The translations under genes were made by a program, and so were the position numbers. A stretch of 64,000 bases of DNA from Streptomyces scabiei 87.22. GTDB lineage: Bacteria; Actinomycetota; Actinomycetes; Streptomycetales; Streptomycetaceae. The stretch lies in contig NC_013929.1 of assembly GCF_000091305.1 (NCBI RefSeq), forward strand, positions 8,122,001 through 8,186,000. The letters are read 5' to 3'. A model generated the notes under the pieces. The model saw nothing but the letters and a program-made list of their open reading frames with translations, was not told where the DNA came from and ran no database searches. Numbering within the stretch: position 1 is the stretch's first letter; each line of letters opens with the position of its first letter. This document shows positions 4,956 through 58,639 of the stretch, in pieces.

Positions 4956-5013
4956 GCGGCGTTCGGTGGCTGTGCGGAGCCGGGCTGCCCAGGGTGCTCG
5001 GACGGGCGCGCGC

Positions 5014-6036: not shown

Positions 6037-6080
6037 GGTCGGCGTGCTCCTTCGTATGGACTGGTGGGCTGGGCACATGG

Positions 6081-6107
6081 TACGTATGACGGGAGACGTT
6101 ATACGTA
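6081..6107. promoter_or_regulatory. Candidate LacI-type operator
   Basis: Seven-bp inverted repeats TACGTAT and ATACGTA lie 13 bp apart, and the tetramer ACGT recurs four times between 6082 and 6113. The site sits in the divergent gap between the LacI-type gene and the MFS gene, where an autoregulatory operator is expected. Assignment to this regulator rests on position and symmetry only. Confidence 0.5.
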
Positions 6108-6144
6108 ACACGTCGCTCGTCGAGCGCCCTTCGAGAGGCAGGAC

Positions 6145-7404: not shown

Positions 7405-7413
7405 TGTTCAGTC

Positions 7414-8775: not shown

Positions 8776-8906
8776 GTCCGATTGTTCCGGCCCGGATTGC
8801 CGGAACGCAACGCGGGGCGCCGTACGTTTGCCGTACGGCGCCCTTCGCACGCCGTAGAGTTGCGCGCACGCCATCCGACAAGATCGACCGATACGAGGCC
8901 TTCATC

Positions 8907-9902
8907 GTGCGCCGACGCTCCCTTCTCATCGCTGTTCCCGCTGGACTGGTCACGCTCGCCGCCTGTGGTGACGGCGATTCCGACTCGGCCAAGGCCAGCA
9001 GCAGCCCGTCCGCGTCGGCGAGCGGTGCGGCGAAGCCGCCGAAGATCGTGGACGGTCCGCTGCCGGCGATCACGGGCGGGGTGAAGTTCGACGAGAAGCC
9101 GACCGTGGCCAAGGGCAGCGGTGAGCCGTCGAAGGACCTGGCGGTGAAGACGGTCATCGCGGGCAGCGGGAAGACGGTCGCCGAGGGCGACTACATCCAG
9201 GCGAACTACCTGGGTCAGATCTGGTCGACGGCGAAGGTCTTCGACAACTCCTACGACCGTAAGACGCCGCTGGTCATCCAGCTCTCCCCGCAGGGCATCA
9301 TCGACGGCTGGCGGTACGCGCTGACGGGCAAGAAGGCCGGCAGCCGGGTGGAGATGGCCGTGCCGCCGACCTGGGGCTACGGCAAGGACGGCAACGCGCA
9401 GGCGGGGATCAAGGGCACCGACACGCTGGTCTTCGTGGTGGACGTCCAGGACACCTTCAACGCCAAGAGTTCGGCGAAGGGCACGAAGGCCGCGCAGAAC
9501 GATGCGAAGCTGCCGAAGGTGGGCACCAACACCGACGGCAAGGCCCCCTCCATCGAGGTGCCGAAGGTCGACCCGCCGACGCAGCTGGTGGCGAACTACA
9601 TCATCGAGGGCGACGGCCCCGAGGTCGGCGCGGAAGACAGCCTCCTCGTGCAGTACAAGGGCGTGCTCTGGGACACCGGCAAGGAGTTCGACTCCTCGTA
9701 CAGCCGGGGGGCGCTGAGCTCGTTCGGGCTGAAGCAGGTCGTCAAGGGCTGGTCGCAGGGCATGACCGGCAAGAAGGTGGGCAGTCGCCTTCTCATCGTC
9801 ATCCCGCCGAAGCTGGGTTACGGGGACACGCCGCCCAGCGGCAGCGACATCAAGAAGGACTCCGTGATGGTGTTCACCGTGGACATCCTCGCCAAGATGT
9901 GA
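8907..9902 (+). CDS. Lipoprotein with two FKBP-type prolyl isomerase domains
   Basis: This exported peptidyl-prolyl cis-trans isomerase is 331 residues long. The GTG at 8907 gives MRRRSLLIAVPAGLVTLAAC, a lipoprotein signal with the lipobox LAAC and lipidated Cys20; the RRRSLL start also resembles a twin-arginine motif. A Ser/Ala linker follows, then two FKBP domains at about residues 70-175 and 215-331, each with the central GW and the [YF]G late motif (IIDGWRYALTGKKAGS and VVKGWSQGMTGKKVGS). It would assist folding at the outer face of the membrane. It is followed after 62 nt by a single-domain cytoplasmic FKBP gene. Confidence 0.92.
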   Translation: MRRRSLLIAVPAGLVTLAACGDGDSDSAKASSSPSASASGAAKPPKIVDGPLPAITGGVKFDEKPTVAKGSGEPSKDLAVKTVIAGSGKTVAEGDYIQANYLGQIWSTAKVFDNSYDRKTPLVIQLSPQGIIDGWRYALTGKKAGSRVEMAVPPTWGYGKDGNAQAGIKGTDTLVFVVDVQDTFNAKSSAKGTKAAQNDAKLPKVGTNTDGKAPSIEVPKVDPPTQLVANYIIEGDGPEVGAEDSLLVQYKGVLWDTGKEFDSSYSRGALSSFGLKQVVKGWSQGMTGKKVGSRLLIVIPPKLGYGDTPPSGSDIKKDSVMVFTVDILAKM

Positions 9903-9964
9903 GGCCCGGGGATGCGAGACTGTCCGGCGTTGTTCCGTACATACACAAGCAGGAGCCTGAAGAC

Positions 9965-10336
9965 GTGAGCATTGACAAGCCCGAGATCGACTTTCCCGAG
10001 GGCGAGCCGCCGGCGGACCTGGCGATCAAGGACATCTGGGAGGGCGACGGCGAGGTGGCCCAGGCGGGCCAGACCGTGACCGTGCACTACGTGGGTGTGT
10101 CCTTCTCCACCGGTGAGGAGTTCGACGCCAGCTGGAACCGCGGCCAGCCGTTCCGTTTCCCGCTCGGTGGCGGTCGTGTCATCAAGGGCTGGGACCAGGG
10201 CGTGCAGGGCATGAAGGTCGGTGGCCGCCGTCAGCTGACCATTCCGGCGCACCTCGCCTACGGCAACCAGAGCCCGACGCCGGCGATCAAGCCCGGTGAG
10301 ACGCTGATCTTCGTGGTCGATCTGCTCGGGGTCTGA
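9965..10336 (+). CDS. FKBP-type peptidyl-prolyl cis-trans isomerase
   Basis: This is a 123-residue single-domain FKBP with no signal peptide, so it should act in the cytoplasm. Conserved features are VTVHYVGVSFSTGEEFDASW, the GWDQGVQGMKVGGRRQLTIP core and the C-terminal ETLIFVVDLLGV strand. The GTG at 9965 gives MSIDKPEIDFPEG, a usual start for this short actinobacterial form. It lies between the lipoprotein FKBP gene and pafB, in a conserved neighbourhood of pafA and pafBC. Confidence 0.93.
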   Translation: MSIDKPEIDFPEGEPPADLAIKDIWEGDGEVAQAGQTVTVHYVGVSFSTGEEFDASWNRGQPFRFPLGGGRVIKGWDQGVQGMKVGGRRQLTIPAHLAYGNQSPTPAIKPGETLIFVVDLLGV

Positions 10337-10394
10337 TCTGCCGGAAGCCGTGTCAGGGCCGACCGTGTTGTGACCGGTCTCGACTGTCTGGGGT

Positions 10395-10414
10395 CCATGC
10401 CTGTTCGGGCATGG
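10395..10414 (+). terminator. Hairpin between the FKBP gene and pafB
   Basis: A 7-bp stem (CCATGCC/GGCATGG) with a 6-nt loop lies in the 150-nt gap after the FKBP stop codon. It may end the upstream transcript and leave pafBC under a separate promoter. The stem is short, so confidence is limited. Confidence 0.4.
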
Positions 10415-10486
10415 GCCCTCGGCTTTTGCCGCGACGCTTCGTAGCGGTAGGTTCGTGCCGCGGAAACACCCGGAGGAAGGGCGTCG

Positions 10487-11464
10487 ATGGCCATTGCCAA
10501 GGCCGAGCGGTTGATGAACCTGGCGCTGTGTCTGCTGGGGACGCGCCGGCCGCTCAGCAAGCGCGAGCTGCGGGATTCGATCGAGGCGTACGTCGAGGCC
10601 GTCAGGCCGGAACACGGTGCGGCGGGAAGCGACGACTCCTTCAACCGCATGTTCGAGCGCGACAAGGACGATCTGCGCGAACTCGGCCTGGTCATCGAGA
10701 CGGTGGAGAACCTCGACGGCGAGGTCGGCTATCTGGCCCGCCGCGACAGCAACAGCCTCCCGCCCATCACCCTCGACGCCGAGGAGGCAGCGGCCCTCGG
10801 GCTCGCCGCGAAGGTCTGGCAGCAGGCCCGTCTGGCCGGAGCCGCGAGCGGCGCCCTGCAGAAGCTGCGGGCGGCCGGGCTGCCCGAGGAGGTCGACCCC
10901 TATGAGGCCCATGGCGCGCTGGAGCCGCGGATCCCGGTGCACGAGGCCGCCTTCGAACCGCTGATGCTGGCCTGCCGCGACCGGCGCCCGGTGGTGTTCG
11001 ACTACCGCAAGGCGACCGCCGCGCGTCCCGAGCCCCGCCATGTGGAGCCGTGGGCGCTGGAGTGCTGGCGCGGTCACTGGTATCTCGCCGGGTTCGACCG
11101 TGACCGGGGCGCGGAGCGGGTCTTCCGGCTCTCCCGGATCACCGGCAGGGTCCGCAGCCGCGCGGGTGCCTTCACCGCGGAGGTGCCGGACGTCGTCACG
11201 GTCCGGGAGACGGTCGCGAGCTGGGCCGGGGAGACCGCCGACCGGTCCGCGCTGATCCGGCTGCGCTCCGGTGCCGGTTACCCGTTGCGGGCGAAGGCCT
11301 CCGCCGTGCGGGAACTCGGGGACGGCTGGGACGAGTTGGAGATTCCGTACGGTCACGGGCTGGATGCCTGGCTGGTCGAGTTCGGGCCCGACGTGGTGGT
11401 CCTGGAGCCCGCCGAGCTGCGGGCCGACGTGGTGGACCGGCTGCGTGCCGTGGCCAAGGGTTGA
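10487..11464 (+). CDS. pafB: WYL-domain transcriptional regulator PafB
   Basis: PafB is one half of the PafBC activator that switches on the LexA-independent DNA-damage response in mycobacteria and relatives. The 325-residue protein has an N-terminal winged-helix region (MAIAKAERLMNLALCLLGTRRPLSKRELRD reads as the start of this domain in two adjacent stretches), then a WYL domain whose signature Trp-Tyr-Leu falls at residues 198-200 in GHWYLAGFDRDRG. A C-terminal WCX-type segment follows. WYL domains are thought to sense single-stranded nucleic acid. pafC starts 15 nt after its stop, so the two are co-translated. The link to pupylation is genomic; the proteins act in transcription. Confidence 0.94.
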   Translation: MAIAKAERLMNLALCLLGTRRPLSKRELRDSIEAYVEAVRPEHGAAGSDDSFNRMFERDKDDLRELGLVIETVENLDGEVGYLARRDSNSLPPITLDAEEAAALGLAAKVWQQARLAGAASGALQKLRAAGLPEEVDPYEAHGALEPRIPVHEAAFEPLMLACRDRRPVVFDYRKATAARPEPRHVEPWALECWRGHWYLAGFDRDRGAERVFRLSRITGRVRSRAGAFTAEVPDVVTVRETVASWAGETADRSALIRLRSGAGYPLRAKASAVRELGDGWDELEIPYGHGLDAWLVEFGPDVVVLEPAELRADVVDRLRAVAKG

Positions 11465-11479
11465 GGGGGAGTTAAGAAC

Positions 11480-12472
11480 GTGGTGGGAAAACCGGCCCGG
11501 CCGGCGAACGCCATCGACCAGACCCGGCGGATGCTCTCCCTGGTGACCTATCTGCGGGAGCGGCCCGGCGCCCGGATCGAGGACGTCGCGCGCGCCTTCG
11601 GGATCACCGAGGACGAACTGGTCTCGGACCTCGATGTGCTGCCCATGTGCGGGACCAGCTTCCGCGGCGGTGATCTGCTCGACATCGACACCGACGGCGA
11701 GCGCATCTGGTGGCACAACCCGGCCGCGCTCGGCGCCGAGGCCGCCGAGCCGCTGCGGCTGGCCGCCGACGAGGCCACCGCCCTGCTGGTGGCCGCCCGC
11801 GCGGTGGCCACCCTGCCCGGACTGCGCGAGAGCGACCGGCAGGCCCTGCTGCGGGCCACCGCCAAGGTCGAGGGCGCGGCCGGGGAGGCGGCGGGTGCCA
11901 GTTCGCGGCTGTCGGTGACCTTCGAGGCCGAGGGCGGGGTCTTCGCGGACGTCGACCGGGCCATCTCGGAGCGCAGGCGGCTGTGGATCCGCTACTACTC
12001 GCCCGCCCGGGACGAGCTCACCGAACGCGAGATCGACCCGATCCGCCTGGTCAGCGTCGGTCACACCTATGTCGAGGCGTGGTGCCGCCGCTCCGAGGCG
12101 CGGCGGACGTTCCGCCTCGACCGGGTCGCCGAGATCAAGATCCTCGACGAGCCGTCCGCGCCGCCCGAGGTCGAGCTGCGGGACCTGTCCCAGGCGCTGG
12201 TGCAGCCCGCCGCCGAGGATCCCGAGGTCGTCGTCGAGGTCGGGCCGGGCGGGCGCTGGGTCGCCGAGTACTACCCGCACGACACCGCCGAGGAGCTGCC
12301 CGAGGGCGGGCTGCGCATCAGCCTGCGCACCCCCGACCCGGCCTCGCTGCGCCGCCTGGCGCTGCGGCTCGGGCGCGACGGCCGGATCGTCTCCCCGCAG
12401 GATCTGGCGGACAGCGCCCGCAGGGCGGCCCGCGAGGCGCTGGCGGCCTATGACGAGGCCGCGACGAGGTGA
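11480..12472 (+). CDS. pafC: WYL-domain transcriptional regulator PafC
   Basis: PafC is the partner of PafB. The 330-residue protein has an N-terminal winged-helix region starting AIDQTRRMLSLVTYLRERPG and a WYL-like domain at about residues 150-235 in which the signature is modified (VGHTYVEAWCRRSEARRTF). A WCX-type C-terminal domain follows, with the PHDTAEELPEGG segment. The ORF begins with GTG and lies in the same operon as pafB. The altered WYL triad is normal for the PafC half, which relies on PafB as partner. Confidence 0.93.
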   Translation: MVGKPARPANAIDQTRRMLSLVTYLRERPGARIEDVARAFGITEDELVSDLDVLPMCGTSFRGGDLLDIDTDGERIWWHNPAALGAEAAEPLRLAADEATALLVAARAVATLPGLRESDRQALLRATAKVEGAAGEAAGASSRLSVTFEAEGGVFADVDRAISERRRLWIRYYSPARDELTEREIDPIRLVSVGHTYVEAWCRRSEARRTFRLDRVAEIKILDEPSAPPEVELRDLSQALVQPAAEDPEVVVEVGPGGRWVAEYYPHDTAEELPEGGLRISLRTPDPASLRRLALRLGRDGRIVSPQDLADSARRAAREALAAYDEAATR

Positions 12473-28015: not shown

Positions 28016-29653
28016 ATGGTGAGTGTTCAATCGCCTCCCGGTGGCCGTGAACTTCCCTACGCACGCTTGCTTCCGCTACCGGCGATACTGATGGCCGCGG
28101 CGACCGGAACCACCGTCCCGCTGGTGACGGGGCCGGTCCGGCTCGCCGTCGGCTTGTGCGGAGCCGCCGCGACGCTCCTGCTCACCGCGGTCGCCGTCCT
28201 CGCGGTGCGCGGCGGCCGTCGCGCGGTCCGGGAACTGCGCGCCGAACAGCAGCGGCGGACCGCGCTCCTCGAACAGCGGATCGCCGCCCACGACCAGGAG
28301 TTCACCCGGCTGGGCAAGGAGATCCTGCCCGCCACGCTGTACCGGCTGCGCACCGGAGAATCCCCCTCAGAGGTGATTCGTCACGTCGTCGACGGTGACA
28401 CCGAGTGGCGCGAACTCCCGGCCTCCCAGCGAGATTTGCTGCGCACCCTGCTCACCATCGTCGACCGCGAGGAAGCGCTGCGGGACTCCTCGCAGCGGTC
28501 CTTCGTGAACATCGCCCGCCGCGTCCAGGCGATCGTCCACCAGCAGAACAACGAACTCCGCGAGATGGAGGAGGACCACGGGCGCAACCCCGAGGTCTTC
28601 GACGACCTGCTGCGCATCGACCACGGCACCGCCCTGATCGGCCGCCTCGCCGACTCCATCGCCGTCCTCGGCGGCGGCCGCCCCGGCCGCGTCTGGTCCC
28701 GGCCCGTCCCGCTGTACAGCGTGCTGCGCGGTGCCATGTCCCGCATCCTGGAGTACCGCCGCATCGAGCTCGACTCGATCGCCAAGGTCAACGTCGACGG
28801 TGTGGGCGTCGAGCCCGTCATCCACGCCTGCGCCGAACTCCTGGACAACGCCACCCGCTACTCGCCGCCCCACACCAAGGTGCACGTCACCGCCGTGGAG
28901 GTGCAGACCGGCATCGCCATCGAGATCGAGGACGGCGGGATCAGCCTCAGCGAGGAGACCCGCGCCAAGGTCGAGGACATGCTCGCCAAGGCCCAGCAGG
29001 GCATCGACATGCAGGAGATGGGCGACACCCCGCGCCTCGGCCTCGCCGTCGTCGGCCGGCTGTCGACCATGTACAACATGCAGATCTCGCTGCGGCCGTC
29101 CGCCTACGGCGGTGTCCGCGCCGTCGTCGTCGTACCGCGCAACCTGCTCACCGAGGAGCCCGCCCCCGGCCTCGCCCACGGCATCGGCGCCGGCGCCGTG
29201 ACGACCATGGACACCGACGGCGTCGAAGGCCCCAACCGCAAGGCCAAGCGCCGCCGCCCGACCACCGGACCGCGCATCCCGAGCTCCGCGGAGGACATGG
29301 GCCAGGGCACGGACGACGACGTTCCCGTCGTCACCGAGTGGACGGCCAACGGCCTGCCGCAGCGCCGCAGCCGGAGCAAGATCCCGCTCAGCCAGCGCTA
29401 CGCCGAGGCCGCCGCCGCGGAGGCCGCGGCCGAGGCCGCCATGGCCGCCGCCCCCGTGTGGCAGGAGCCCGTACCCGAGAAGGAGCAGCCTCCGCCCGGC
29501 ATGTGGGTCGAGGCGTTCATGGCCGGACTCAAGGGCGACCCCGACCCGAACGCCTTCAGGAACCACCCGGACGACCCGAGGCCGTCCACCGCACGCACCG
29601 CGAACACCGAGCCGGCCCGCACCGAGGCCGACGACGAGGGGGACCTCAAGTGA
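28016..29653 (+). CDS. cvnA: Conservon sensor-like histidine kinase CvnA (RarA-like)
   Basis: The 545-residue protein is the membrane component of a conservon signalling set. It has two N-terminal transmembrane segments (about residues 18-65), a helical cytoplasmic region and a kinase-type ATPase domain with the N-box ELLDNATRYSPP and DGG in IEIEDGGISLS. The long C-terminal tail of about 150 residues is charged and disordered. No canonical phosphorylatable H-box is seen; the nearest is the VHQQNNELRE helix. It overlaps cvnB by GTGA. The gene order cvnA-B-C-D-P450 and the helicase upstream recall cvn9/rarA-E of S. coelicolor, which represses aerial growth and antibiotic production. Confidence 0.92.
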   Translation: MVSVQSPPGGRELPYARLLPLPAILMAAATGTTVPLVTGPVRLAVGLCGAAATLLLTAVAVLAVRGGRRAVRELRAEQQRRTALLEQRIAAHDQEFTRLGKEILPATLYRLRTGESPSEVIRHVVDGDTEWRELPASQRDLLRTLLTIVDREEALRDSSQRSFVNIARRVQAIVHQQNNELREMEEDHGRNPEVFDDLLRIDHGTALIGRLADSIAVLGGGRPGRVWSRPVPLYSVLRGAMSRILEYRRIELDSIAKVNVDGVGVEPVIHACAELLDNATRYSPPHTKVHVTAVEVQTGIAIEIEDGGISLSEETRAKVEDMLAKAQQGIDMQEMGDTPRLGLAVVGRLSTMYNMQISLRPSAYGGVRAVVVVPRNLLTEEPAPGLAHGIGAGAVTTMDTDGVEGPNRKAKRRRPTTGPRIPSSAEDMGQGTDDDVPVVTEWTANGLPQRRSRSKIPLSQRYAEAAAAEAAAEAAMAAAPVWQEPVPEKEQPPPGMWVEAFMAGLKGDPDPNAFRNHPDDPRPSTARTANTEPARTEADDEGDLK

Positions 29654-30057
29654 TCCAGCAACGGGCCAATTTCGACTGGCTGCTGAAGGATCTGGCCGAC
29701 GGCGTACCCGGCATCCAGCAGATCGTCGTGCTCTCCGCCGACGGCCTGCGGATCGCCCGCCACGGCGGCGACCCGGACGCCGCCGACCGGGTCGCCGCGG
29801 CGTGCGCGGGACTGCAGAGCCTGGCCGGCGCCGTGGCCGGTGAGATCCCGCAGAGCGACGGCCACATGCGGATGGTCATCATCGAGATCAACGGCGGCTA
29901 CTTCTACATGATGGCCGCCGGCTCCAACGCCTATCTCGCGGTGCTCGCCAACGAGGTCGCCGAACCCGGACTGATGAGCAACCGCATGCGCGACCTCGTC
30001 GACCGCATCGGCTCCCACCTCACCAGTCCGCCCCGGCGGAACGGCCAGACCGTATGA
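29650..30057 (+). CDS. cvnB: Conservon roadblock/LC7-domain protein CvnB
   Basis: The 135-residue protein has a roadblock/LC7 fold (DWLLKDLADGVPGIQQIVVLSADG...), the family that works as GTPase-activating or scaffold partner of small MglA-like GTPases. In conservons it is thought to join CvnA and the GTPase CvnD in a membrane complex. The GTG start overlaps the stop of cvnA and its own stop overlaps the start of cvnC, so translation is coupled throughout. Confidence 0.93.
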   Translation: MIQQRANFDWLLKDLADGVPGIQQIVVLSADGLRIARHGGDPDAADRVAAACAGLQSLAGAVAGEIPQSDGHMRMVIIEINGGYFYMMAAGSNAYLAVLANEVAEPGLMSNRMRDLVDRIGSHLTSPPRRNGQTV

Positions 30058-30470
30058 CGCCTCCGCGTCGCCAACGGCGCCAGCCCCAGCACGAACCGCC
30101 GCCTCCGCCGCCGCCCGAGGACGGTCCCCCGAGCGGGGCGGGGGAGCGCCGGGCCCCCGAGCGGCTCTACATCCTCACCGGCGAGGACGGCGAACGGGCC
30201 CCGATCGACCTCGTCACGTTGATCGTGGCGCGCGCCGACCCGCCGCCGTCCGCCGCCCCGGAGCAGTCCGCGCTGCTGCGGATCTGCGAGGCACCTCTGT
30301 CCGTGGCCGAGATCTCGGCCTACCTCAACCTGCCGATCAGCGTGGTGACCGTCCTGCTCACCGAGCTGCTGACGGCCGAACTGGTCCAGGCACGCGCACC
30401 GGTCGTCCGGCAGGCGCGGGCCGACCGTTCCCTCCTCGAAGCGGTGATGCATGGACTTCAAAAGCTCTGA
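30054..30470 (+). CDS. cvnC: Conservon DUF742 protein CvnC
   Basis: The 138-residue DUF742 protein has a proline-rich N-terminus (residues 1-30, including PPPPPPP) and a winged-helix-like core with LLRICEAPLSVAEISAYLNLPISV and the conserved LEAVMHGLQKL end. Its biochemical role is unknown; it belongs to the conservon complex. It overlaps cvnB by ATGA and cvnD by 20 nt, so all four proteins are made in fixed proportion. Confidence 0.92.
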   Translation: MTPPRRQRRQPQHEPPPPPPPEDGPPSGAGERRAPERLYILTGEDGERAPIDLVTLIVARADPPPSAAPEQSALLRICEAPLSVAEISAYLNLPISVVTVLLTELLTAELVQARAPVVRQARADRSLLEAVMHGLQKL

Positions 30471-31074
30471 CACCATCACGGGTCCACGGACCGAGGACCA
30501 CCTGCCGCACACCGCGCAGGCCGCGGCGAAGATCGTGATCGTGGGCGGTTTCGGCGTCGGCAAGACGACCATGGTGGGGTCCGTCAGCGAGATCAGGCCG
30601 CTGACGACCGAGGAGACCATGACGCAGGCCGGTGTCGGCGTCGACGACAACTACGGCTCCAAGTCCAAGACGGCCACCACCGTGGCCATGGACTTCGGCC
30701 GCATCAGCATCACCGACGAGCTGGTGCTGTACCTGTTCGGCACCCCCGGCCAGGAGCGCTTCTGGTTCCTGTGGAACGGCCTGTTCGAGGGTGCCCTGGG
30801 CGCCGTCGTCCTGGTCGACACGCGGCGGCTGGAGGTCAGCTTCGACGTCATGGGCCGCCTGGAGGAGCGGGACGTGCCCTTCGTCGTGGCGGTCAACGAC
30901 TTCCCCGACGCGCCGCGCTACGCCCTCGACGAACTGCGTCAGGCCCTCGACCTGGCCCCGGAGATCCCGATCATCCGCTGCGACGCGCGCCGCCGGGCGT
31001 CCAGCCGGGACGTCCTGATGACCCTCACGACCTTCCTGCACTCCCTGGCGATGTCGGGGGCGGCGTCGGCATGA
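30451..31074 (+). CDS. cvnD: Conservon small GTPase CvnD
   Basis: The 207-residue protein is a Ras/MglA-like GTPase. The P-loop GGFGVGKTTMVG lies at about residues 32-43, the G3-like motif is LFGTPGQERF and the G4-like motif is VAVNDFPDAP, in which the usual NKxD is NDFP, a conservon-type deviation. It is expected to cycle under control of CvnA/CvnB and signal to the downstream P450 or other targets. It ends in ATGA, which opens a 48-codon ORF before the P450 gene. Confidence 0.93.
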   Translation: MDFKSSDTITGPRTEDHLPHTAQAAAKIVIVGGFGVGKTTMVGSVSEIRPLTTEETMTQAGVGVDDNYGSKSKTATTVAMDFGRISITDELVLYLFGTPGQERFWFLWNGLFEGALGAVVLVDTRRLEVSFDVMGRLEERDVPFVVAVNDFPDAPRYALDELRQALDLAPEIPIIRCDARRRASSRDVLMTLTTFLHSLAMSGAASA

Positions 31075-31217
31075 CTCGCGCCCGATCCCCGTACGCCCCG
31101 TACATCCCAGGCATCTCTTACGCCCCGTACGAACCGTGCACGCCGTACGCCCCCGGCGGCCTTCCCGACACAGACACCGGATCCACCTCAGCTCGGAGCG
31201 ATCACCGTGACGCCTGA
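31071..31217 (+). CDS. Possible 48-residue Tyr/Pro-rich peptide
   Basis: An ATG overlapping the cvnD stop codon (ATGA) opens a 48-codon ORF that ends 11 nt inside the P450 gene. The product has a repeated aromatic pattern: SPYAPYIPG, SYAPYEPCTPYAP. Its coupling to cvnD and overlap with the P450 start would let ribosomes travel through the whole operon. There is no homology I recognise, and the repeats could equally be non-coding spacer; treat as a hypothesis. Confidence 0.3.
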   Translation: MTRARSPYAPYIPGISYAPYEPCTPYAPGGLPDTDTGSTSARSDHRDA

Positions 31218-32676
31218 ATCACACTCCCTCACCGGCACGGACGACCCCACCCTCGGGCCGCCCCCCGGCTGCCCCGCCCACGGCACGGGCCCCGGCGGGA
31301 TCCGCCGCCTCTACGGCCCCGAGGCGGAGGACCTGGGAGCCGTGTACGAGAAGCTCCGCGCGGAGCACGGCCCGGTGGCTCCGGCCCTGCTCCACGACGA
31401 CGTGCCGATCTGGGTGGTGCTCGGGCACGGGGAGAACATGCACATGGTGAGTACGCCGTCGCAGTACTCCCGAGACACCCGTCTGTGGAACAAGCTCCAG
31501 GACGGCACGTTCAAGCCCGACAACCCGCTGATGCCGCACATCGCGTGGCAGCCCATCTGCTGCCACGCCGAGGGCGACGAGCATCTGCGGCTGCGCGGCG
31601 CGGTCACCGGGGCCATGTCGACGATCAACTTCCGGGGCATCCGGCGCAGCATCAACCGCTACACCCAGCAACTCGTCAACGAGTTCTGCGAGGAGGGCGA
31701 GGCGGATCTGGTCGGCCAGTTCGCCGAGCATCTGCCGATGGCGGTGATGTGCGAGATCCTCGGCATGGCCGAGGAGTACAACGACCAGATCGTGCACGCC
31801 GCCCGGGACATGCTCAAGGGCACCGAGACCGCGATCGCCAGCAACGCCTACATCATGGAAGCCCTCATGCGGCTCACCGTGCGCCGCAGGGCCGAGCCGC
31901 AGGAGGACTTCACCAGCCACCTGATCAACCACCCGGCGCGGCTCACCGACGAGGAGGTGGGCCAGCACCTGCGGGTCGTGCTCATCGCCGCCTACGAGGC
32001 CACCACCAACCTGCTCGCCAACGTGCTGCGCGTGGTGCTGACCAACCCCGGATTCCGTGCCCAGCTGAAGGGCGGCCAGATGACCGTGCCCGAGGCGGTC
32101 GAGCAGTCCCTGTGGGACGAGCCGCCGTTCAGCACGCAGCTCGCCTACTTCGCCAAGCAGGACACGGAGCTGGGCGGTCAGCGTGTGCGCAAGGGCGACG
32201 GTCTGCTGTTCGGCATCGCGCCCGGCAACGTCGATCCGCGGGTGCGGCCCGACCTCACCGCCAACATGCAGGGCAACCGGTCGCACCTCGCCTTCGGCGG
32301 CGGCCCGCACGAGTGCCCCGGCCAGGACACCGGCCGTGCCATCGCCGACGTCGGCGTCGACGCGCTGCTGGCACGTCTCCCCGACATCCGGCTCAACTGC
32401 GAGGAGAGCGAACTGCGCTGGCGGGCCTCCATCTCGACCCGGCACCTGGTCAGGCTCCCGGTGCGCTTCGAGCCCAAGGAGCGGGAGGCTCTCGAACTGC
32501 GGCCCGTCGGCCGCCCGGTGCCGGCGCAGCGCGAGGGCCGGCAGACCGTCACCCCGGACACCCCGCTCCAGGCCGCCTCCCCCGAGCCCCGGCCGGCGAC
32601 ACCGGCCCCGGATGCGGAACCGAAGGGCCGTCCCGGTCTCCTGCGCCGCGCGCTGCGGTGGTTGAGCGGCCGCTAG
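31207..32676 (+). CDS. Conservon cytochrome P450 (CYP157-like, RarE-like)
   Basis: The 489-residue P450 has the haem-binding segment FGGGPHECPGQ with ligand Cys370. Two normally conserved motifs deviate. The K-helix ExxR is EQSLW, the replacement known from the Streptomyces CYP157 family. The I-helix reads AAYEATTN, so the oxygen-activating Thr after the acidic residue is Ala. The C-terminal 70 residues are Pro-rich and basic, ending RRALRWLSGR. As the fifth gene of the conservon it may act in signalling or on an unknown small molecule. Its stop codon overlaps that of the convergent pseudouridine synthase gene. Confidence 0.9.
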   Translation: MTPESHSLTGTDDPTLGPPPGCPAHGTGPGGIRRLYGPEAEDLGAVYEKLRAEHGPVAPALLHDDVPIWVVLGHGENMHMVSTPSQYSRDTRLWNKLQDGTFKPDNPLMPHIAWQPICCHAEGDEHLRLRGAVTGAMSTINFRGIRRSINRYTQQLVNEFCEEGEADLVGQFAEHLPMAVMCEILGMAEEYNDQIVHAARDMLKGTETAIASNAYIMEALMRLTVRRRAEPQEDFTSHLINHPARLTDEEVGQHLRVVLIAAYEATTNLLANVLRVVLTNPGFRAQLKGGQMTVPEAVEQSLWDEPPFSTQLAYFAKQDTELGGQRVRKGDGLLFGIAPGNVDPRVRPDLTANMQGNRSHLAFGGGPHECPGQDTGRAIADVGVDALLARLPDIRLNCEESELRWRASISTRHLVRLPVRFEPKEREALELRPVGRPVPAQREGRQTVTPDTPLQAASPEPRPATPAPDAEPKGRPGLLRRALRWLSGR

Positions 32677-51238: not shown

Positions 51239-52198
51239 ATGAGCAGTTCGCCGCCGCCCGGCTGGTACCGCGACCCGTCCTACCCGCTCACCGAACGCTG
51301 GTGGGACGGGACCGCGTGGACCGACCACCGGCGCCAGCCGGAGCAGCCCGTGCCGCCGGTGCTCCCGCCGGGACCGCCCGCGCGCGGGGGCCTCGGCCGC
51401 ACCGGGTTCGTGGCCCTGGCAGCCGCCGGTGCCGTCCTGGTCGCCGGGGCGGTCACGGGCGGCGTCCTCCTGCTCGGCGGCGACGGGGACGGCGAGGACG
51501 GCGGCCGGGAGACGAGGAGCGCGACCACCTCACCGACCTCCGGCCCCGACGGCAGCCCCACCCCGACGAAGCCCGCCGACGCGTCGCCCACCGGCGACCC
51601 GGACGTCGTCACCGACGACCTCAACGGCATCACGTTCCCCGTCCCCGACGGCTGGGAGAACGGCGACGGATCGGCCGAGGACGACGCGGTCCTCGTCACG
51701 GACGACGGCCTCTACGACTGCCCCGGCGACAACGGCCTGTGCCGCCGCGGCACGGTCGTCTCCCGGACCGTCACCGGCAGCGCCGAGACCTCCCCGAAGG
51801 TCCTCGCCGAGAACGACATCGAGGACGCGGCCGACGACGCCTACGACCGCGACGGACTCGACCGGCGCCCCTACGACGGCATCACCGGCCACGAGGTCGT
51901 CGGCTCCGGCTCGGTCGCCGTCGCGGGCCGCGCCGGCTACTACGTGCGCTGGCGCGTGACGACCGGGGCCGGACCCGGCGGGTACGTCCAGTCCCTCGTC
52001 TTCCCGTCCAGCAGCGGCTCCGAGGCCCCGGTCCTCGTCCGGTTCGCCCTCGACGCGGGCGAGGACGGCCCGCCGCTCGACGACATCGACGAGATCGTCG
52101 AGGGCATCCGCGCGGTGGGCGACGCGGGCGAGGACACGGACAAGGGCACAGGCTCCGGGACGGGCGGGGGAGTGGGCAGCAGCCTCGGCCCCTCCTGA
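51239..52198 (+). CDS. DUF2510 membrane protein
   Basis: The 319-residue protein has the DUF2510 motif PPGWYRDPSYPLTERWWDG at residues about 6-25, one transmembrane helix (GFVALAAAGAVLVAGAVTGGV) at about 58-78, a Thr/Pro/Asp linker and an extracellular domain with a likely disulphide (DCPGDNGLC). It ends in a Gly/Ser tail. The C-terminal domain is unassigned. It begins 15 nt after the terminator of the amine operon and is probably transcribed alone. Confidence 0.8.
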   Translation: MSSSPPPGWYRDPSYPLTERWWDGTAWTDHRRQPEQPVPPVLPPGPPARGGLGRTGFVALAAAGAVLVAGAVTGGVLLLGGDGDGEDGGRETRSATTSPTSGPDGSPTPTKPADASPTGDPDVVTDDLNGITFPVPDGWENGDGSAEDDAVLVTDDGLYDCPGDNGLCRRGTVVSRTVTGSAETSPKVLAENDIEDAADDAYDRDGLDRRPYDGITGHEVVGSGSVAVAGRAGYYVRWRVTTGAGPGGYVQSLVFPSSSGSEAPVLVRFALDAGEDGPPLDDIDEIVEGIRAVGDAGEDTDKGTGSGTGGGVGSSLGPS

Positions 52199-52226: not shown

Positions 52227-53429
52227 CTACAGGAACGTGTGGCCCTCGCCGCGGTACGTCGGCACGGCCGCCGTCACCTCGTCGCCCTCGACCAGGTGCA
52301 GCACGTCGAACCGCTCGCACAGTTCGCCGGCCTTGGCGTGCCGGAACCACACCTTGTCGCCGAGCAGCAGGTCGTCGGCGGGCGCCCCCAGCAGCGGTGT
52401 CTGCACCTCGCCCGGACCCTCCTGCGGGTCGTACCTCAGCCCCTCGGGCAGGTACGGCACGGGGAGCCGGTCGGGGCCGGGCGCGCCGGAGGCCGGGTAG
52501 CCGCCGCCCAGGACCGTCACGACCCCGACACCGGGACGCCGTACGACGGGCATCGCGAACAGCGCGGCCGGACGCCCGCTGAACGACGTGTAGTTGTCGA
52601 AGAGACGCGGCACGTAGAGCCCGGAACCGGCGCCGATCTCGGTCACCGAGTCCTCCGCCGCCGTGTGCTGCACACTGCCCGTGCCGCCGCCGTTCACGAA
52701 CTCCAGGTCCGGGGCCACCCGCCGTACCGCACGCACCACTTCGGCCCGCCGCGCGGCCAGCTCCTTCTTCGCGGTGGCCTGCATCAGCCGGATGGCACGC
52801 GACCGCAGCGGCCGCCCCGCCACCGCGTCGCCCACACCGGCGATATGACCCTCGTACGCCATGATCCCGACCAGCTTGAACCCCGGGCGCTCCGCGATCG
52901 CGCGGGCCATGTCGGCCACCTGCGCGGGGGAGTGCAGCGGGGAGCGCAGTGCCCCGACCCGCACCCGGCCGCCGAGCAGCTTCAGCGAGGTGTCCAACTC
53001 CAGGCAGACCCGCACCACTTCGGTGCCGCCGCGCCGGGCGTCGTCGATCAGCTGGAGCTGGGCGGGGTCGTCGACCATGACGGTCACGGCGGCGGCCAGC
53101 TTGGGGTCGCCCGCCAGTTCGGCGAAGGCATCGTGGTCGGCCGACGGGTAGGCGAGGAGCACGTCCTCGAATCCGGAGCGGGCCAGCCACAGGGACTCGG
53201 CGAGGGTGAACGACATGATGCCCTCGAAGCCGTCCCGGGCCAGGACCCTCTCCAGCAGGGCCCGGCAGCGAACGGACTTGCTCGCGACGCGGATCGGCTT
53301 GCCGCCGGCCCTGCGCCGGAGGTCGTCGGCGTTCGCGTCGAACGCGTCGAGGTCGACGATCGCCAGAGGGGCGTCGAGATGAGCTGTGGCCCGGTCGTAC
53401 CGGGCCCGGTCGGCGGCGCGCGCAGTCAT
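52227..53429 (-). CDS. Fold-III PLP enzyme (alanine-racemase/D-threonine-aldolase-like)
   Basis: The 400-residue protein has the N-terminal TIM-barrel domain of alanine racemase-like enzymes. The PLP lysine is in RVASKSVRCR, and the C-terminal part contains LGGGYPASG and DKVWFRHAKAGELCERF, the latter typical of D-threonine aldolase/D-serine dehydratase-like proteins with a metal site. Predicted activities are D-amino acid deaminase or aldolase; the precise substrate is unknown. ATG at 53429 is used. It is convergent with the DUF2510 gene, 28 nt apart. Confidence 0.82.
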   Translation of the reverse strand: MTARAADRARYDRATAHLDAPLAIVDLDAFDANADDLRRRAGGKPIRVASKSVRCRALLERVLARDGFEGIMSFTLAESLWLARSGFEDVLLAYPSADHDAFAELAGDPKLAAAVTVMVDDPAQLQLIDDARRGGTEVVRVCLELDTSLKLLGGRVRVGALRSPLHSPAQVADMARAIAERPGFKLVGIMAYEGHIAGVGDAVAGRPLRSRAIRLMQATAKKELAARRAEVVRAVRRVAPDLEFVNGGGTGSVQHTAAEDSVTEIGAGSGLYVPRLFDNYTSFSGRPAALFAMPVVRRPGVGVVTVLGGGYPASGAPGPDRLPVPYLPEGLRYDPQEGPGEVQTPLLGAPADDLLLGDKVWFRHAKAGELCERFDVLHLVEGDEVTAAVPTYRGEGHTFL

Positions 53430-53714
53430 GCACGAAGCCTGCCAGACATGATTACCGCAGGGTAGGGGGACGTTCCGGGCAGAAGCCACGGGCCGGCGGA
53501 CTGGTTCCCGTTCCACGGGGCCCAGCCCGTAGAGTGACGCGCACGCAGGGACGACCTCGACGGGGATGCCGATCCGCTGCCGCGGGTATGGCTTGCCCGT
53601 GGTGACGACGGCTGCCGGCGGGCGTGTCCCGGTTATGCGTGACGACCGCTCCCCACGGGCGGTCGGACGCCCGGACGACCTCCGGGTCGCACGGGACGAG
53701 GAAACGGGGGGTGC

Positions 53715-56285
53715 ATGAGCACGGAAGCACGTCGTGCCTCCATCCCCCCGCGCCCACCGGTCCCGCCCCGCCCGTCCATACCGCCGGACCACGAGCCGAC
53801 GGCCACGCCACCGGCCGCACCGCCGAACACTCCGCCCCGGCCTCCGTCGAGGGAACCCGGGTCCGACGGCCGGGCCACGGACACGAGTCCGTCGGCCCCG
53901 GGCACCTCCGCCCCGACCGCACGTCCGCAGGGCACGACCACGCGCGCGTCCGGCTCCGGCTCCCCGTTCCGGCCCGGCCCGACGGGGGGCTCCCCGGTCC
54001 CCCCGCCCCGCCCGGACCGCGCGCCGTCGGCCGGGAACGGCCCGACCGTGCCCCGCCGCCCGCAGCGGCCCCCCGTGACGCCCGCCCGGCCCGGCACTCC
54101 GCCCCGCCCGTCCTCGGCGCCCGCGCCGACGCCCGACGCGCTCCGGGACGGACGACGCCCCGGCACGGCGGACACCCCGAACACCCCGGACAGCGAACGG
54201 AGTTCAGCCGACGCGCCCAGGTCCTCCGGTCCGCACGGCACCGCCCCGACCCGTCCGCACGACGCCGCCCCGACGGCTCGTCAGAACGACGCCGCCCCGA
54301 CGACCCGTCAGAACGGCTTCCCGCGAGGCTCCCGGCGGCCGGCCGGCCATGGCCCCGTGCGCGGCTCCGGCGCGGCGCCCGGGCCCGACCCCGTACGGGG
54401 GCCGGGCGAGGCGGCCGCGGGCCCGGATGCCGCCCGGGGTGCCGACCGGGCCAGGCCCGGCCGCACCTCGGCGCGCGGCACCGACGGACGGCCGGGCGGG
54501 CCGAGCCCGGCGCGCGACGCCGCCCAGTCGGCCGACCGGAGCCCCGCCCGTGACGCCGCCGCGGACGGCGGCACCGCCCCGCGTCGCGGCGAGCACCCGC
54601 GGTTCTCCGACTTCCGGCGCACCACCGGCCAGAACGGCGGCACCCCGGCCACCCCGCCGCCCCCGGCCGCCTCCGCCCGTTTCCCGGACGCCCCGCCCCC
54701 GGCGTGGACCCGCTTCCTGAACACGCCTCCGGCCGCTCCGACACGTTTCCCGGACGCCCCGCCCGTAGCCTCGGCCCGTTTTCCCGACGGCCCCCCGTCC
54801 GCCGGCCGCCGGGAGGACGGCCCGCCCCCGGCCTCGGCCCGCTTCCCCGACGCACCGCCGTCGACACGAGACACCACACGGCGGACGGCTCCCGCGCGCC
54901 CCTCCGGTCCCGCGGCGTCCCCGGGTTCCGCACGGCCCTCCGGCCCCGCCCCGTCCTCCGGCTCCGCACGGCTCCCGGGCGGGCGGGCCGCCGACCCGGC
55001 CCCGGCTGCCGACGCATTTCCCGGCCGCGCGCCCCGGCCTTCCGGCCCTCCCGCCGACGGCGCGCCCCCTCGCTCCTCCGGCCCGTCCTCCGACGCCGCG
55101 GGCACCCGGCGGGCCGCCGGCGCCTCCGCCGGCGGGGCACCACCGCGCTCGTCCGGCGACGCGCCCACCCGGCAGGTGGGCTCCTTCACCGACGGCGCGC
55201 CCCCTCGCTCCTCCGGCCCGTCGGCCTCCCGCGACGGTGTGACGGCATCCGGCGGTGCCGTCCCGCCCTCCGGCCCACCCCCCGCCGCGCCACCGCTTCG
55301 CCGTCCCCTGCCCGAGGAGCGGGGCCCCGAGGGCACTCCGCACCCGCGGCCCCTCACACCCGAGCGCCCCGGCACCTGGCAGCCCCCGTCGGGTTCGTCC
55401 CGGCGCTCCGCCGAAGCCCTCGACGGCGTCCTCGGTACGCCCCCCGGGCGGCCCTACGTGACGTTCGCCCAGCCCGACACCTCGCCGTGGACCCCGCCGG
55501 AGCCGTACGGCGCACAGCCCCGCAAGCCCCGGCCCACCGCGGCGCGGGCCGCCGCCGTGGCGCTGTGCGTGGTGCTCGGCGCCGGGCTCATCGGCGGAGC
55601 GGCGGCCGGGAGCTGGCTCACCGGCGACTCCGGGACCGAGGGCTCCCGTGACACGTTCGCGGTCGCCGGACAGCTGTGGCACGGCGTACCCGTCGACGAA
55701 CTGTTCCCGCCCACCGTGCGGGGCGAGGGCGCCGGACCCGGCGGCACCGACCGCATCTGGACCCGGATCGCCGTCGCCCCCGACAGCGGCTGCGCGGACG
55801 CCTTCGACCCCCTCCTGCGCAAGGTCCTCGCCCCCGTCGGCTGCCTGCGCCTGCTGCGCGCCACCTACACCGACGCGACCAGCAGCAACGTCACCACCGT
55901 CGGCCTGATGTTCACCAAGTCCGACGCCGCCGCCATGGCCGCCCTCAGGAACCGCTTCGCGAAGGACGGACTCGACCGCCGCACCGACCTGATGCCGCGG
56001 CCGTACGCCGCCGAGGACACCGCGGCGGCCGGCTTCGGCGACGACCAGCGGGCCTCCTGGACGGTCTCCGTCCTCACCGACGTCCCCGTCGTCGTCTACG
56101 CCGTCTCCGGTTTCGCCGACGGCCGTACCGTCACCGAACCCCAGCCCGCAGAGGACGCGATGAAGGCCGGCGCCACCACCGCCCCCGCCCAGTCCGGTCT
56201 CGGCCACGAGGCGAAGGGCCTCGCCGACCGCATCGAACGCGGTCTGCGCGCGACCGCCGCGTCCGCCACGGAGCAGCCTTCATGA
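53715..56285 (+). CDS. Very long Pro/Ala-rich membrane protein coupled to a mycosin
   Basis: The 856-residue protein has about 600 residues of Pro/Ala/Arg/Ser-rich disordered sequence, with recurring ARFPDAPP and DGAPPRSSGPS units, then one transmembrane helix (about 611-633, VALCVVLGAGLIGGAAAGSWL) and an extracellular domain of about 220 residues with two Cys (SGCADAFD, APVGCLRLLR). The codon bias supports this frame over the long antisense ones. Its stop overlaps the mycosin start (ATGA), so the two are made together. I do not recognise the C-terminal domain. The cytoplasmic tail is far longer than usual for a single-pass protein and could be a scaffold. Confidence 0.8.
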   Translation: MSTEARRASIPPRPPVPPRPSIPPDHEPTATPPAAPPNTPPRPPSREPGSDGRATDTSPSAPGTSAPTARPQGTTTRASGSGSPFRPGPTGGSPVPPPRPDRAPSAGNGPTVPRRPQRPPVTPARPGTPPRPSSAPAPTPDALRDGRRPGTADTPNTPDSERSSADAPRSSGPHGTAPTRPHDAAPTARQNDAAPTTRQNGFPRGSRRPAGHGPVRGSGAAPGPDPVRGPGEAAAGPDAARGADRARPGRTSARGTDGRPGGPSPARDAAQSADRSPARDAAADGGTAPRRGEHPRFSDFRRTTGQNGGTPATPPPPAASARFPDAPPPAWTRFLNTPPAAPTRFPDAPPVASARFPDGPPSAGRREDGPPPASARFPDAPPSTRDTTRRTAPARPSGPAASPGSARPSGPAPSSGSARLPGGRAADPAPAADAFPGRAPRPSGPPADGAPPRSSGPSSDAAGTRRAAGASAGGAPPRSSGDAPTRQVGSFTDGAPPRSSGPSASRDGVTASGGAVPPSGPPPAAPPLRRPLPEERGPEGTPHPRPLTPERPGTWQPPSGSSRRSAEALDGVLGTPPGRPYVTFAQPDTSPWTPPEPYGAQPRKPRPTAARAAAVALCVVLGAGLIGGAAAGSWLTGDSGTEGSRDTFAVAGQLWHGVPVDELFPPTVRGEGAGPGGTDRIWTRIAVAPDSGCADAFDPLLRKVLAPVGCLRLLRATYTDATSSNVTTVGLMFTKSDAAAMAALRNRFAKDGLDRRTDLMPRPYAAEDTAAAGFGDDQRASWTVSVLTDVPVVVYAVSGFADGRTVTEPQPAEDAMKAGATTAPAQSGLGHEAKGLADRIERGLRATAASATEQPS

Positions 56286-57550
56286 ACACCGGTGAACCCG
56301 GGACCACCAGGACCCCCGCGACGGCGCGGGACACCGGACAGCCCGCGACGCCCGCCCGTCCCGGACCCCGGGCCCGGCGCCCGCGCCTGGCCCTGCTCAG
56401 CATCCCCCTCGCCGCCTCCCTGGCCCTCCTGCCGTCCACCGCCGCGCACGCCGACGGCATCCGGGACCAGCAGTGGGCGCTGGACGCGATGCACACCCAG
56501 GAGGCGTGGCGGACCACCAAGGGGGCGGGCATCACCGTCGCGGTGCTCGACACCGGCGTGGACGACGAGCACCCCGACCTGGCCGGCAACATCCTGCCGA
56601 CGAAGGACATGGTCGGCTTCGGCGCCTCGCGCGGCGACCGGCCGTGGGCCCGGCACGGCACCGCCATGGCCGGGATCATCGCCGGACACGGACACGGCGT
56701 GAACGACGCCGACGGCGTCCTCGGCATCGCGCCCGAGGCGAAGATCCTCCCCGTCCGCGTCATCCTGGAGGACAAGGACCCGGCCCGCTCCAAGGCCCGC
56801 AGCACCCGGGGCAACGCCCTCGCCGAAGGCATCCGCTGGGCCGCCGACCAGGACGTCGACGTCATCAACCTCTCCCTCGGCGACGACTCCGAGTCCGCGC
56901 ACCCGGAACCCTCCGAGGACGCCGCCGTCCAGTACGCCCTGTCGAAGGGCTCGATCGTCGTCGCCTCGGCCGGCAACGGCGGCGCGAAGGGCGACCACAT
57001 CTCCTACCCGGCCGCCTATCCGGGAGTGATCGCGGTGGCCGCCGTCGACGAGGACGGCGACCGCGCCCCGTTCTCCACCCGCCGCTGGTACGCCACCGTC
57101 AGCGCCCCCGGCGTCGACGTCGTCATCGCCGACCCGGACCGCAAGTACTACGAGGGCTGGGGCACCAGCGCCGCCGCGGCCTTCGTCTCCGGTGCCGCCG
57201 CCCTCGTCAAGGCGGCCCACCCGAGCCTGACCCCCGCCCAGGTCAAACGTCTCCTGGAGGACACCGCCCGCGAGGCCCCCGTCGGCGGCCGCGACGACTC
57301 CCGCGGGTTCGGCTTCGTCGACCCGGCGGCCGCCATCCGCGAGGGCGCCGCGCTCACCTCCGACGACCTCAAGACCGCGTCGTACGGCGGCAAGTACTTC
57401 GGTTCCGGGCCGGACCCGGTGGAGAAGGAGGACCCGACGGCCGGCTGGGTCGCCCCCGCCGCCGGCGGACTCGGAGCGTTCCTGCTGGTCGTCGCCGTGA
57501 TGGTGTGGCGGGGACGCGGTCGCGGCCGGCCCGACGAGTACGTGGTCTGA
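56282..57550 (+). CDS. Mycosin-like subtilisin serine protease
   Basis: The 422-residue protein has a signal peptide (hydrophobic segment LALLSIPLAASLALLPSTAAHA, read as two stretches), an S8 protease domain and a C-terminal transmembrane anchor (LGAFLLVVAVMVWRGRG), the layout of type VII secretion mycosins. Catalytic residues: Asp90 (AVLDTGVDD), His125 (RHGTAMAG) and Ser296 in GWGTSAAAAF; the oxyanion Asn232 is in SAGNGG. The usual Pro two residues after GTSxA is replaced by Ala. No ESX core genes are present nearby; the coupled partner is the Pro/Ala-rich protein. Confidence 0.9.
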   Translation: MNTGEPGTTRTPATARDTGQPATPARPGPRARRPRLALLSIPLAASLALLPSTAAHADGIRDQQWALDAMHTQEAWRTTKGAGITVAVLDTGVDDEHPDLAGNILPTKDMVGFGASRGDRPWARHGTAMAGIIAGHGHGVNDADGVLGIAPEAKILPVRVILEDKDPARSKARSTRGNALAEGIRWAADQDVDVINLSLGDDSESAHPEPSEDAAVQYALSKGSIVVASAGNGGAKGDHISYPAAYPGVIAVAAVDEDGDRAPFSTRRWYATVSAPGVDVVIADPDRKYYEGWGTSAAAAFVSGAAALVKAAHPSLTPAQVKRLLEDTAREAPVGGRDDSRGFGFVDPAAAIREGAALTSDDLKTASYGGKYFGSGPDPVEKEDPTAGWVAPAAGGLGAFLLVVAVMVWRGRGRGRPDEYVV

Positions 57551-57559
57551 CCCCGGCGC

Positions 57560-58639
57560 CTACGAGGTGCCGCCCGCACCCGCCCCGGCCCCGCCCGCCG
57601 CACCCGCCCCGCCCGTTGCGTCCTCGAACACGGAGACGGCCGCCCGTGCCGCCGCCTCCACCAGCGAGATCCCCTTCGCCTTCGTGGTGTTGCCGTGCGA
57701 CACCACCGCGACCAGGCGGGCCCGGCCGTCCACCATCACCCGGCCGATGCTGTTGATCACCCACAGCCCGGTGGCGGTACGCGGCAACCAGCCGTTCTTC
57801 AGAGCGAACCCGGACCCCGTGACCCCGCCCGACGCCGCCGCCGACACGCCCCAGTCCTGCCCCTGGGCGATGCCTCCCATCAGCTGCTGGACGTACGCCC
57901 GCGAGGCCGCGCTCAGCTCCGAGGTGGCGTCGTCACCGAACACCTGCTGGAGCAGGATGAGCTGATCGGCCGCCGTGGTCCGGGTGAGGCCCCAGTACAG
58001 GCCGTCGCCGCCCTCGGTGTCCGTCAGCCCGAACCGCTCGTTCGCGGCGTCGAGGCCGTCCGCCTGCCCGACGGCCTTCCACAGGGCCGTCGCGGACGCG
58101 TTGTCGCTGTCCCGGATCATCGCGGAGGCGTACGTCCGCTCCTGCGCGGTGAGGTGCCGGTCCGCGTCCTGGGCCCGCAGCAGCAGGGCCGCCAGGATGT
58201 CCGCCTTGACGATGCTCGCGGTCTCGAAGCGCGCGTCCCCGTACCGGGCCGACTCCCCGGACGCCATGTCCAGCACCGCCACCGACACGGCCGCCCCGTC
58301 CTCGACGGTCACCTCCGCCAGCGCCGTCGCGAGCAGCGCGTCGTGGTCCACCGCGGGCGCCGCGACAGGTTCCACCGAAGCCTCCTCAGCGACCGTGTCC
58401 GCCTCCGGCACGGCCGAGGCGGAGGCCGTCGCCGTCACCGGCGATGACGCCGACGACGATACGGCGGAACCCGCGCCGTCCAGGGCCCGGGCCCTCATGT
58501 ACACCGACCCGGCGGCCGTGCCGCCGACCAGGACGAGGGCGGCGAGCGCGAGGTGCGGGAGCGGACGGCGCACGGCGCGGCGACGCACGGCAGGGCGGGC
58601 GCGGCGACGGTCTCGGCGACGGGCTCGGAAGGACGGCAT
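57560..58639 (-). CDS. Beta-lactamase-fold serine hydrolase, membrane-anchored
   Basis: The 359-residue protein has an Arg-rich N-terminus, one transmembrane helix (about 28-46), a Ser/Ala linker and a class A beta-lactamase-like domain. SxxK is Ser142-Ile-Val-Lys145, SDN is at 178-180 and the KTG counterpart is K281-N-G. The class A ExxLN motif with the deacylating glutamate is not visible, so it is more likely a DD-peptidase-like or signalling protein than a resistance enzyme. The C-terminal tail is Gly/Ala-rich. It is convergent with the mycosin gene, 9 nt apart. Confidence 0.83.
   Translation of the reverse strand: MPSFRARRRDRRRARPAVRRRAVRRPLPHLALAALVLVGGTAAGSVYMRARALDGAGSAVSSSASSPVTATASASAVPEADTVAEEASVEPVAAPAVDHDALLATALAEVTVEDGAAVSVAVLDMASGESARYGDARFETASIVKADILAALLLRAQDADRHLTAQERTYASAMIRDSDNASATALWKAVGQADGLDAANERFGLTDTEGGDGLYWGLTRTTAADQLILLQQVFGDDATSELSAASRAYVQQLMGGIAQGQDWGVSAAASGGVTGSGFALKNGWLPRTATGLWVINSIGRVMVDGRARLVAVVSHGNTTKAKGISLVEAAARAAVSVFEDATGGAGAAGGAGAGAGGTS

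Follow-up and report, generated by a model that had tools for sequence, protein, structure and literature searches.

A mycosin gene overlapping that of a proline- and alanine-rich membrane protein in Streptomyces scabiei: a putative protease module outside ESX loci

Mycosins are regarded as components of type VII secretion systems (ESX systems), so what might such a protease do where its gene stands apart from them? The question is raised by a locus of Streptomyces scabiei 87.22 in which the gene of a mycosin-family S8 protease (here MYC) overlaps that of a large, proline- and alanine-rich membrane protein (PART) lying just ahead of it. The locus was analyzed in a window of 64,000 nucleotides, bases 8122001-8186000 of the 10,148,695-base single-contig genome. 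As judged from sequence comparison, the PART–MYC pair is real and old. As to its function, we favor, with a confidence that stays a little under even, an ESX-independent transmembrane module made of a sensor (PART) and a protease (MYC).

A mycosin gene and its overlapping neighbor

MYC scored 326.0 bits against TIGR03921 (whole-protein score; curated cut-off 278.75) and is the sole match above this cut-off in its genome; four further S8 genes found there, each scanned by itself, reached 119.5-125.4 bits. Hydropathy revealed a signal-peptide-like segment at residues 36-54 and a C-terminal one at 390-408. The catalytic residues are invariant in 39/39 aligned sequences from infC loci, and a strict triad motif search recovered 73/79 sequences, the six misses differing beside, not at, these residues. 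By its score, catalytic residues, predicted signal and predicted anchor, MYC is a true member of the mycosin family. The structure model of MYC is of low confidence (63.3) and confirms the subtilisin fold only; a fold search with it gave no MycP entry among the best 50 matches listed, and no conclusion was drawn from this. According to one study, almost all of 100 mycosins are devoid of paired arginines, a character bearing on Tat export (PMC10924467). The aspartate, histidine, asparagine and serine residues are all retained in 33 of the 34 mycosins that are paired with PART. In a locus with two tandem pairs (L202), the second mycosin (10774-11901, + strand) has its catalytic residues replaced (D to H, H to Y, N to D and S to Q) and looks like a pseudoprotease beside its PART; by analogy with what is reported for MycP, its retention hints at a non-proteolytic role.

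The preliminary description of the locus presented PART as an 856-residue protein with one membrane helix, an external domain and about 600 cytoplasmic residues, overlapping the mycosin gene by ATGA. The open reading frame and the hydropathy profile bore this out, and the overlap was read directly from the sequence (Table 1). A tail of ~610 residues rich in Pro, Ala, Arg and Gly is followed by one transmembrane helix and by an ectodomain of ~210 residues. The charge distribution points to an N-in/C-out orientation and the composition of the tail to disorder: residues 1-600 contain 23.7% Pro, 15.7% Ala, 12.5% Arg and 11.8% Gly, neither Lys nor Cys, and carry a net charge of +27.

The two genes were found adjacent well beyond S. 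scabiei. MYC directly follows PART in 80/80 named Streptomyces loci, taken as the best 80 among 512 relatives, and the 4-bp overlap is present in 78 of them; the nearest named locus is that of S. stelliscabiei (94% in the best segment). In a second set of loci, which includes the window and one locus (L066) reading N over part of PART, the overlap was observed in 33 of the 35 loci with both genes. The PART domain was detected in 47/61 genomes (S. scabiei and 60 relatives). In the genus sample of 37 genomes, S. scabiei included, PART is present in 36 and adjacent to MYC in 35. The exception is G012, in which PART and MYC lie 4.5 Mb apart (L062 and L102), both apparently shortened at their facing ends; PART is short and MYC is without in-frame signal peptide. 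No PART match was obtained in G017, a fragmented draft of 1,140 contigs. The search across actinobacteria, which the preliminary description had proposed, recovered the pair in Streptomyces, in a second family and in further families of the class. The order racemase–PART–MYC–SseB is common to the second family (L057-L061, which we guess to be Catenulisporaceae), and in L057 and L059-L061 infC comes next after these genes; the flanking gene tables covered these loci except L058 and parts of L057 and L059. In the class-wide sample, 75/394 genomes gave PART matches, some of them weak and partial. In L187-L189, L191, L192 and L202, a tandem PART–MYC–PART–MYC arrangement is preceded by a ThiF/rhodanese gene, and a UvrD-type helicase gene lies farther along, these flanking genes having been tested in L187 and L188; in L197 the tandem locus is interrupted by the contig end. 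We take this tandem family to be Micromonosporaceae.

PART and MYC also vary together. In a mirror-tree analysis (n=62), the partial correlation of their distances, beyond two neighboring genes, was the highest of six pairs (r 0.49). Both evolve fast and at similar rates, with mean distances of 0.30 for PART and 0.25 for MYC versus 0.15 and 0.13 for the neighbors. These rates, together with the position of PART just upstream of MYC in all 80 named loci, are also compatible with PART being a dedicated foldase, inhibitor or membrane anchor of MYC, a counterpart in trans of the subtilisin propeptide that would not sense anything. We consider this quite unlikely: a cytoplasmic tail of ~600 residues with conserved motifs would be unneeded in such a protein, and PART-like genes exist without adjacent mycosin.

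No description of the PART–MYC pair was recognised in literature searches of open-access papers. The protease family is already known; neither the partner family nor the ESX-free clade nor the tail with its motifs seems to have been described within the literature searched. In Streptomyces coelicolor the two genes presumably lie near SCO1607/SCO1608. SCO1603-1605 are a duplicated block according to PMC3388780.

Relation of the pair to ESX loci

The preliminary description stated that no ESX genes accompany the pair. This holds for the 64-kb window, in which no EccC-like (FtsK/SpoIIIE), EccB or WXG100 match was obtained. It does not hold for the genome, which carries an ESX cluster (L047 and L048; 6.51-6.55 Mb) 1.66 Mb from the pair. 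Besides EccC and EccD, this cluster contains a DUF6177 gene and a pair of small Esx-like genes that match no Pfam family; no mycosin or other S8 gene and no EccB were found in it. In the whole genome, neither PF05108 (EccB, E<=1) nor PF06013 (WXG100, E<=0.1) gave a match, the latter test being weak as the genome's own Esx-like genes escape PF06013 too.

The absence of a mycosin in this cluster leads to an alternative, in which MYC, with PART, would act in trans as the mycosin that this cluster lacks. An in-trans arrangement has been raised for the S. scabies 87.22 ESX system, according to PMC8401907, which cites another paper for it. The idea is favored by a cluster with EccC and EccD and with neither S8 gene nor EccB, the PF05108 model otherwise recognising Streptomyces EccB, and by MYC being the only TIGR03921 match above cut-off in the genome. 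However, all four congeneric genomes lacking EccC over cut-off (G010, G011, G024 and G027, of 37) have the pair, as do two genomes of another family, G309 (L192) and G325 (L202). It is also retained where the ESX cluster owns a mycosin (e.g. G015, G004), and the paired mycosins form a separate clade. A general role for the pair in an ESX system in trans is lowered by its presence in genomes without EccC, and for MYC itself we hold the idea to be improbable. The same genomes argue for a separate two-gene module rather than a piece of an ESX cluster, as had been surmised. Neither finding that, by the preliminary description, would have refuted this was made: the two genes stay adjacent in other species, and the pair does not always lie in an ESX cluster.

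Where EccC is present, it is mostly remote. Of the congeneric genomes, 31 carry the pair together with EccC over cut-off; their EccC is on a different contig in 19 and 185 kb or more away in 12. Among 19 non-genus genomes taken from the class-wide sample, eight are without EccC over cut-off, and pairs were read in 8/19, G309 and G325 being the two genomes with a pair that lack it. BLAST against a small reference set recognised no ESX gene anywhere in the complete tables of L187 and L188, nor up to three genes from PART in the other tandem loci. A family-profile scan of 19 mainly ESX-type loci detected PART in L053 and L054 only.

In a tree of 50 hand-chosen sequences, the 34 PART-paired sequences and the uncoupled orthologue of G012 form one supported clade (95/89). 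The 13 mycosins from ESX or WXG-protein loci fall outside it, three of the ESX-labelled ones (L103, L106 and L094) being without EccC within their stretch; MYC does not group with the ESX-linked mycosins. Those of L053 and L054 nest inside the paired clade, beside L190, L199 and L200, in the tables of which no ESX gene was recognised. From this topology, the union of PART and MYC looks like one old lineage and the nearness of EccC in L053 like a secondary event.

MYC resembles the TIGR03921 mycosins (MycP) by its score over the curated cut-off, its catalytic residues, its signal peptide and its C-terminal anchor, but differs from them by its location outside an ESX cluster, its distinct clade, a partner that is PART instead of EccB, and its occurrence in some genomes without EccC over cut-off. 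The order of the genes recalls EccB–MycP, with the partner encoded ahead of the mycosin: in L092, EccB (PF05108, 267 bits) directly precedes the mycosin, and in L198 two small genes stand between them. PART differs from EccB by the absence of a PF05108 match and by a smaller domain. According to PMC5082899, MycP5 co-purifies EccB5 and supports the stability of the complex, and MycP is essential for ESX with a protease activity dispensable for secretion. The gene overlap, the co-variation and the EccB-like gene position (L092) suggest, by analogy, that PART may be the membrane partner of MYC. A comparable case could be Sfla_1620/Sfla_1621 of S. pratensis, a mycosin beside a protein likened to the Ala/Pro-rich ESX-1 proteins, which differs by its location near bldB (PMC4239341).

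Ectodomain, tail and proposed function

The conserved core of PART is, by alignment, its ectodomain, in which a Trp, an Arg, two Cys and the ATYxDxT and ADGR columns are invariant across both families. The AlphaFold 2 (AF2) model of this region has a mean pLDDT of 81.6, with 149/249 residues at 90 or above, and model residues 1-36, which comprise most of the transmembrane segment, below 50. In a structural comparison, the PknH ectodomain came out on top (Z 7.4; rmsd 3.9 over 140 residues), followed by a Rv0999 orthologue (Z 6.9), TiME (6.2 and 6.0) and START-like helix-grip proteins (5.3 at most). That four mycobacterial chains head this ranking of a predicted fold is suggestive. These PknH/TiME/Rv0999-type domains appear as the nearest folds, with Z 7.4-6.0 over 133-140 residues, but share only 8-12% identity with PART, without sequence-family match, and PART has no kinase. 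The PknH cleft could bind cell-wall lipids, as stated in PMC4601284. A Pfam scan of 68 PART domains matched five families by one or two members each (best E 0.07), nothing rising above noise, and a PDB sequence search with the PART domain gave no match at E<=1.

The tail belongs to the protein. The [MV]STEA start was found in 52 of the 65 named loci complete at their 5' side, mostly with the same G-rich stretch ahead, and positions 6-8, 11-14 and 17-18 of the N-terminus are nearly fixed among 53 sequences (these 52 loci and the window). Across the 52 loci, PART measures 414-998 residues (median 650). The tail frame has no stop over 11,141 codons of 32 loci versus 42-106 in each other frame, a count that is supporting only, the frame having been picked as the open one and 207 codons of one row being N. 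The codon-usage gene finder alone places the start of PART at 55458, the tail, rich in Pro and Ala, being atypical. A non-coding tail or a frame artefact was rejected in view of the conserved start, the open frame and the conserved motifs. An RFPDxPP-type motif is present in 47/53 orthologues versus 0/53 shuffled tails, TTxRLRP in 27/53, and a VSFxEP-type juxtamembrane motif in 36/53, mostly 263-277 residues from the C-terminus; the patterns were drawn up after viewing these same sequences, a choice for which the shuffles do not allow. As the sequences are related, these counts reflect conserved residues and not independent events. A degenerate DNA pattern for ARFPDxPP has three matches in the whole genome, all inside the PART gene. 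By hydropathy alone, PART of the window has one transmembrane-like segment; among the 53 orthologues, 37 have one and 16 two or three.

In the other families keeping the pair, PART is mostly of 220-290 residues by predicted starts, longer forms being possible in L059 (426), L192 and L197. The giant tail is, on this comparison, an elaboration, though one whose N-terminus and short motifs are conserved. The preliminary description had placed a disordered scaffold at the center of the system; that emphasis has to move to the ectodomain, and an essential scaffold role of the tail is weakened by the mostly short PART of the other families.

Both proteins are predicted to be membrane-anchored and to expose their folded domains on the outside, their genes overlap, the stalk between the PART helix and ectodomain is short and variable (by eye), and nearly all paired mycosins keep their catalytic residues. 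These data are also compatible with regulated proteolysis, in which a signal would make MYC cleave PART, in its ectodomain or in the short stalk, and the membrane remainder with its tail would alter a cytoplasmic output. The long tail, which should be the signaling part, is however mostly lacking in the other families, and one paired mycosin of L202 is devoid of catalytic residues; we regard regulated proteolysis as unlikely.

In the sensor–protease module that we favor, the helix-grip-like, PknH-sensor-like ectodomain of PART would sense a ligand or a state of the envelope, and PART would hold MYC alongside on the outer side of the membrane and regulate its activity or its access to substrates. 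In Streptomyces, the Arg/Pro-rich disordered tail could serve as a long tether offering docking motifs to cytoplasmic partners. The relation would be like that of EccB and MycP in type VII machines, minus the channel. Contact between PART and MYC, ligand sensing, regulation and tail docking are all putative steps. A bolder and rather doubtful version makes PART a PknH-like receptor class without kinase, whose outputs would be the co-encoded outer mycosin and an inner, motif-bearing disordered hub.

Several results weigh against the module. EccC is carried by 33/37 congeneric genomes, a complete EccC stands ~4 kb from the L053 pair, and close to the L054 pair is a WXG100-like gene with a weak match under the cut-off. 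Foldseek found no match to the ectodomain model at E<=0.001, Pfam none to the PART domain of the window at E<=10, and the Z values of the structural neighbors are all below 8, a range in which the likeness may be no more than a common arrangement. Relatives that retain the pair mostly miss the long tail. Finally, the correlations of other neighbor pairs are not much lower than that of PART and MYC: 0.42 for MYC–racemase, 0.37 for SseB–racemase and 0.28 for PART–SseB.

If the bolder, receptor-class version is correct, mycosins would have a second, ESX-free career as envelope-signaling proteases. A clade with another partner in genomes without recognised EccC would show the protease's own function, and would bear on the puzzle of an essential MycP whose protease activity ESX can do without (PMC5082899). 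Streptomyces genetics would gain a two-gene target near infC that is syntenic and almost universal.

Features of the window and side observations

Table 1. Positions of the features of the PART–MYC locus in the window
Feature	Position	Strand	Basis or remark
Ala_racemase_N gene, divergent, frequent neighbor	52227..53429	-	domain match and locus comparison
G-rich stretch resembling a ribosome-binding site, ggaaacggggggtgc	53700..53714	+	before PART start; same or similar ahead of most MSTEA starts in named loci
PART, 856 aa, ATG start, single-pass membrane protein	53715..56285	+	open reading frame and hydropathy
Conserved PART N-terminus, MSTEARRASIPPRP	53715..53756	+	consensus of 53 sequences picked by [MV]STEA start
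SARFPDxPP short cytoplasmic motif, repeated, five RF-type copies	54672..54863	+	pattern search
VTFAQPD juxtamembrane motif (relatives: VSFGEPE)	55458..55478	+	pattern search
Predicted PART transmembrane helix, residues 612-630	55548..55604	+	hydropathy; low confidence in the AF2 model
PART extracytoplasmic domain, invariant pair Cys693/Cys710	55656..56282	+	alignment and AF2 model
ATGA shared by the PART stop and the MYC start	56282..56285	+	read from sequence
MYC, mycosin-family S8 protease, 422 aa, predicted signal peptide and C-terminal transmembrane segment	56282..57550	+	TIGR03921, PF00082, subtilisin fold
MYC D90 (56549), H125 (56654), oxyanion N232 (56975), S296 (57167)	56549..57169	+	catalytic residues
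Beta-lactamase-fold neighbor, convergent, outside conserved module	57560..58639	-	PF13354

The beta-lactamase-fold neighbor, which the preliminary description thought might belong to the system, was rejected as a third member on its presence counts: 63/80 named loci, 14/36 loci of the second set and 0/5 of the second family. The Ala_racemase_N neighbor is present in 64/80 named loci, some loci ending before its position. Beyond the beta-lactamase-fold gene lie SseB and infC; the window also contains glnA-like, aldehyde dehydrogenase, SDR and DUF2510 genes. The DUF2510 protein (51239-52198, + strand) scored 27.3 bits against TIGR03931 (type VII secretion-associated Rv3446c domain), under the cut-off of 47.6, and its spot holds a different gene or none in several relatives.

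The PART-like genes without adjacent mycosin lie between truA and rplM in L055, L056, L193-L196, L203 and L204 (flanks assigned by eye); those of L195 and L196 have open tails of ~1,000 residues. In M. tuberculosis, ESX-4 is located at this site. Elsewhere in the window, a conservon-like group (28091-32676, + strand) begins with the gene of a HATPase_c protein; two small genes, a GTPase-like gene of ATP_bind_1 type and, by eye, a P450-like gene complete it. A Pup–proteasome locus occupies 746-12472 (+ strand), in which a Pup_ligase-family gene and a proteasome subunit were identified by test and the remainder by eye.

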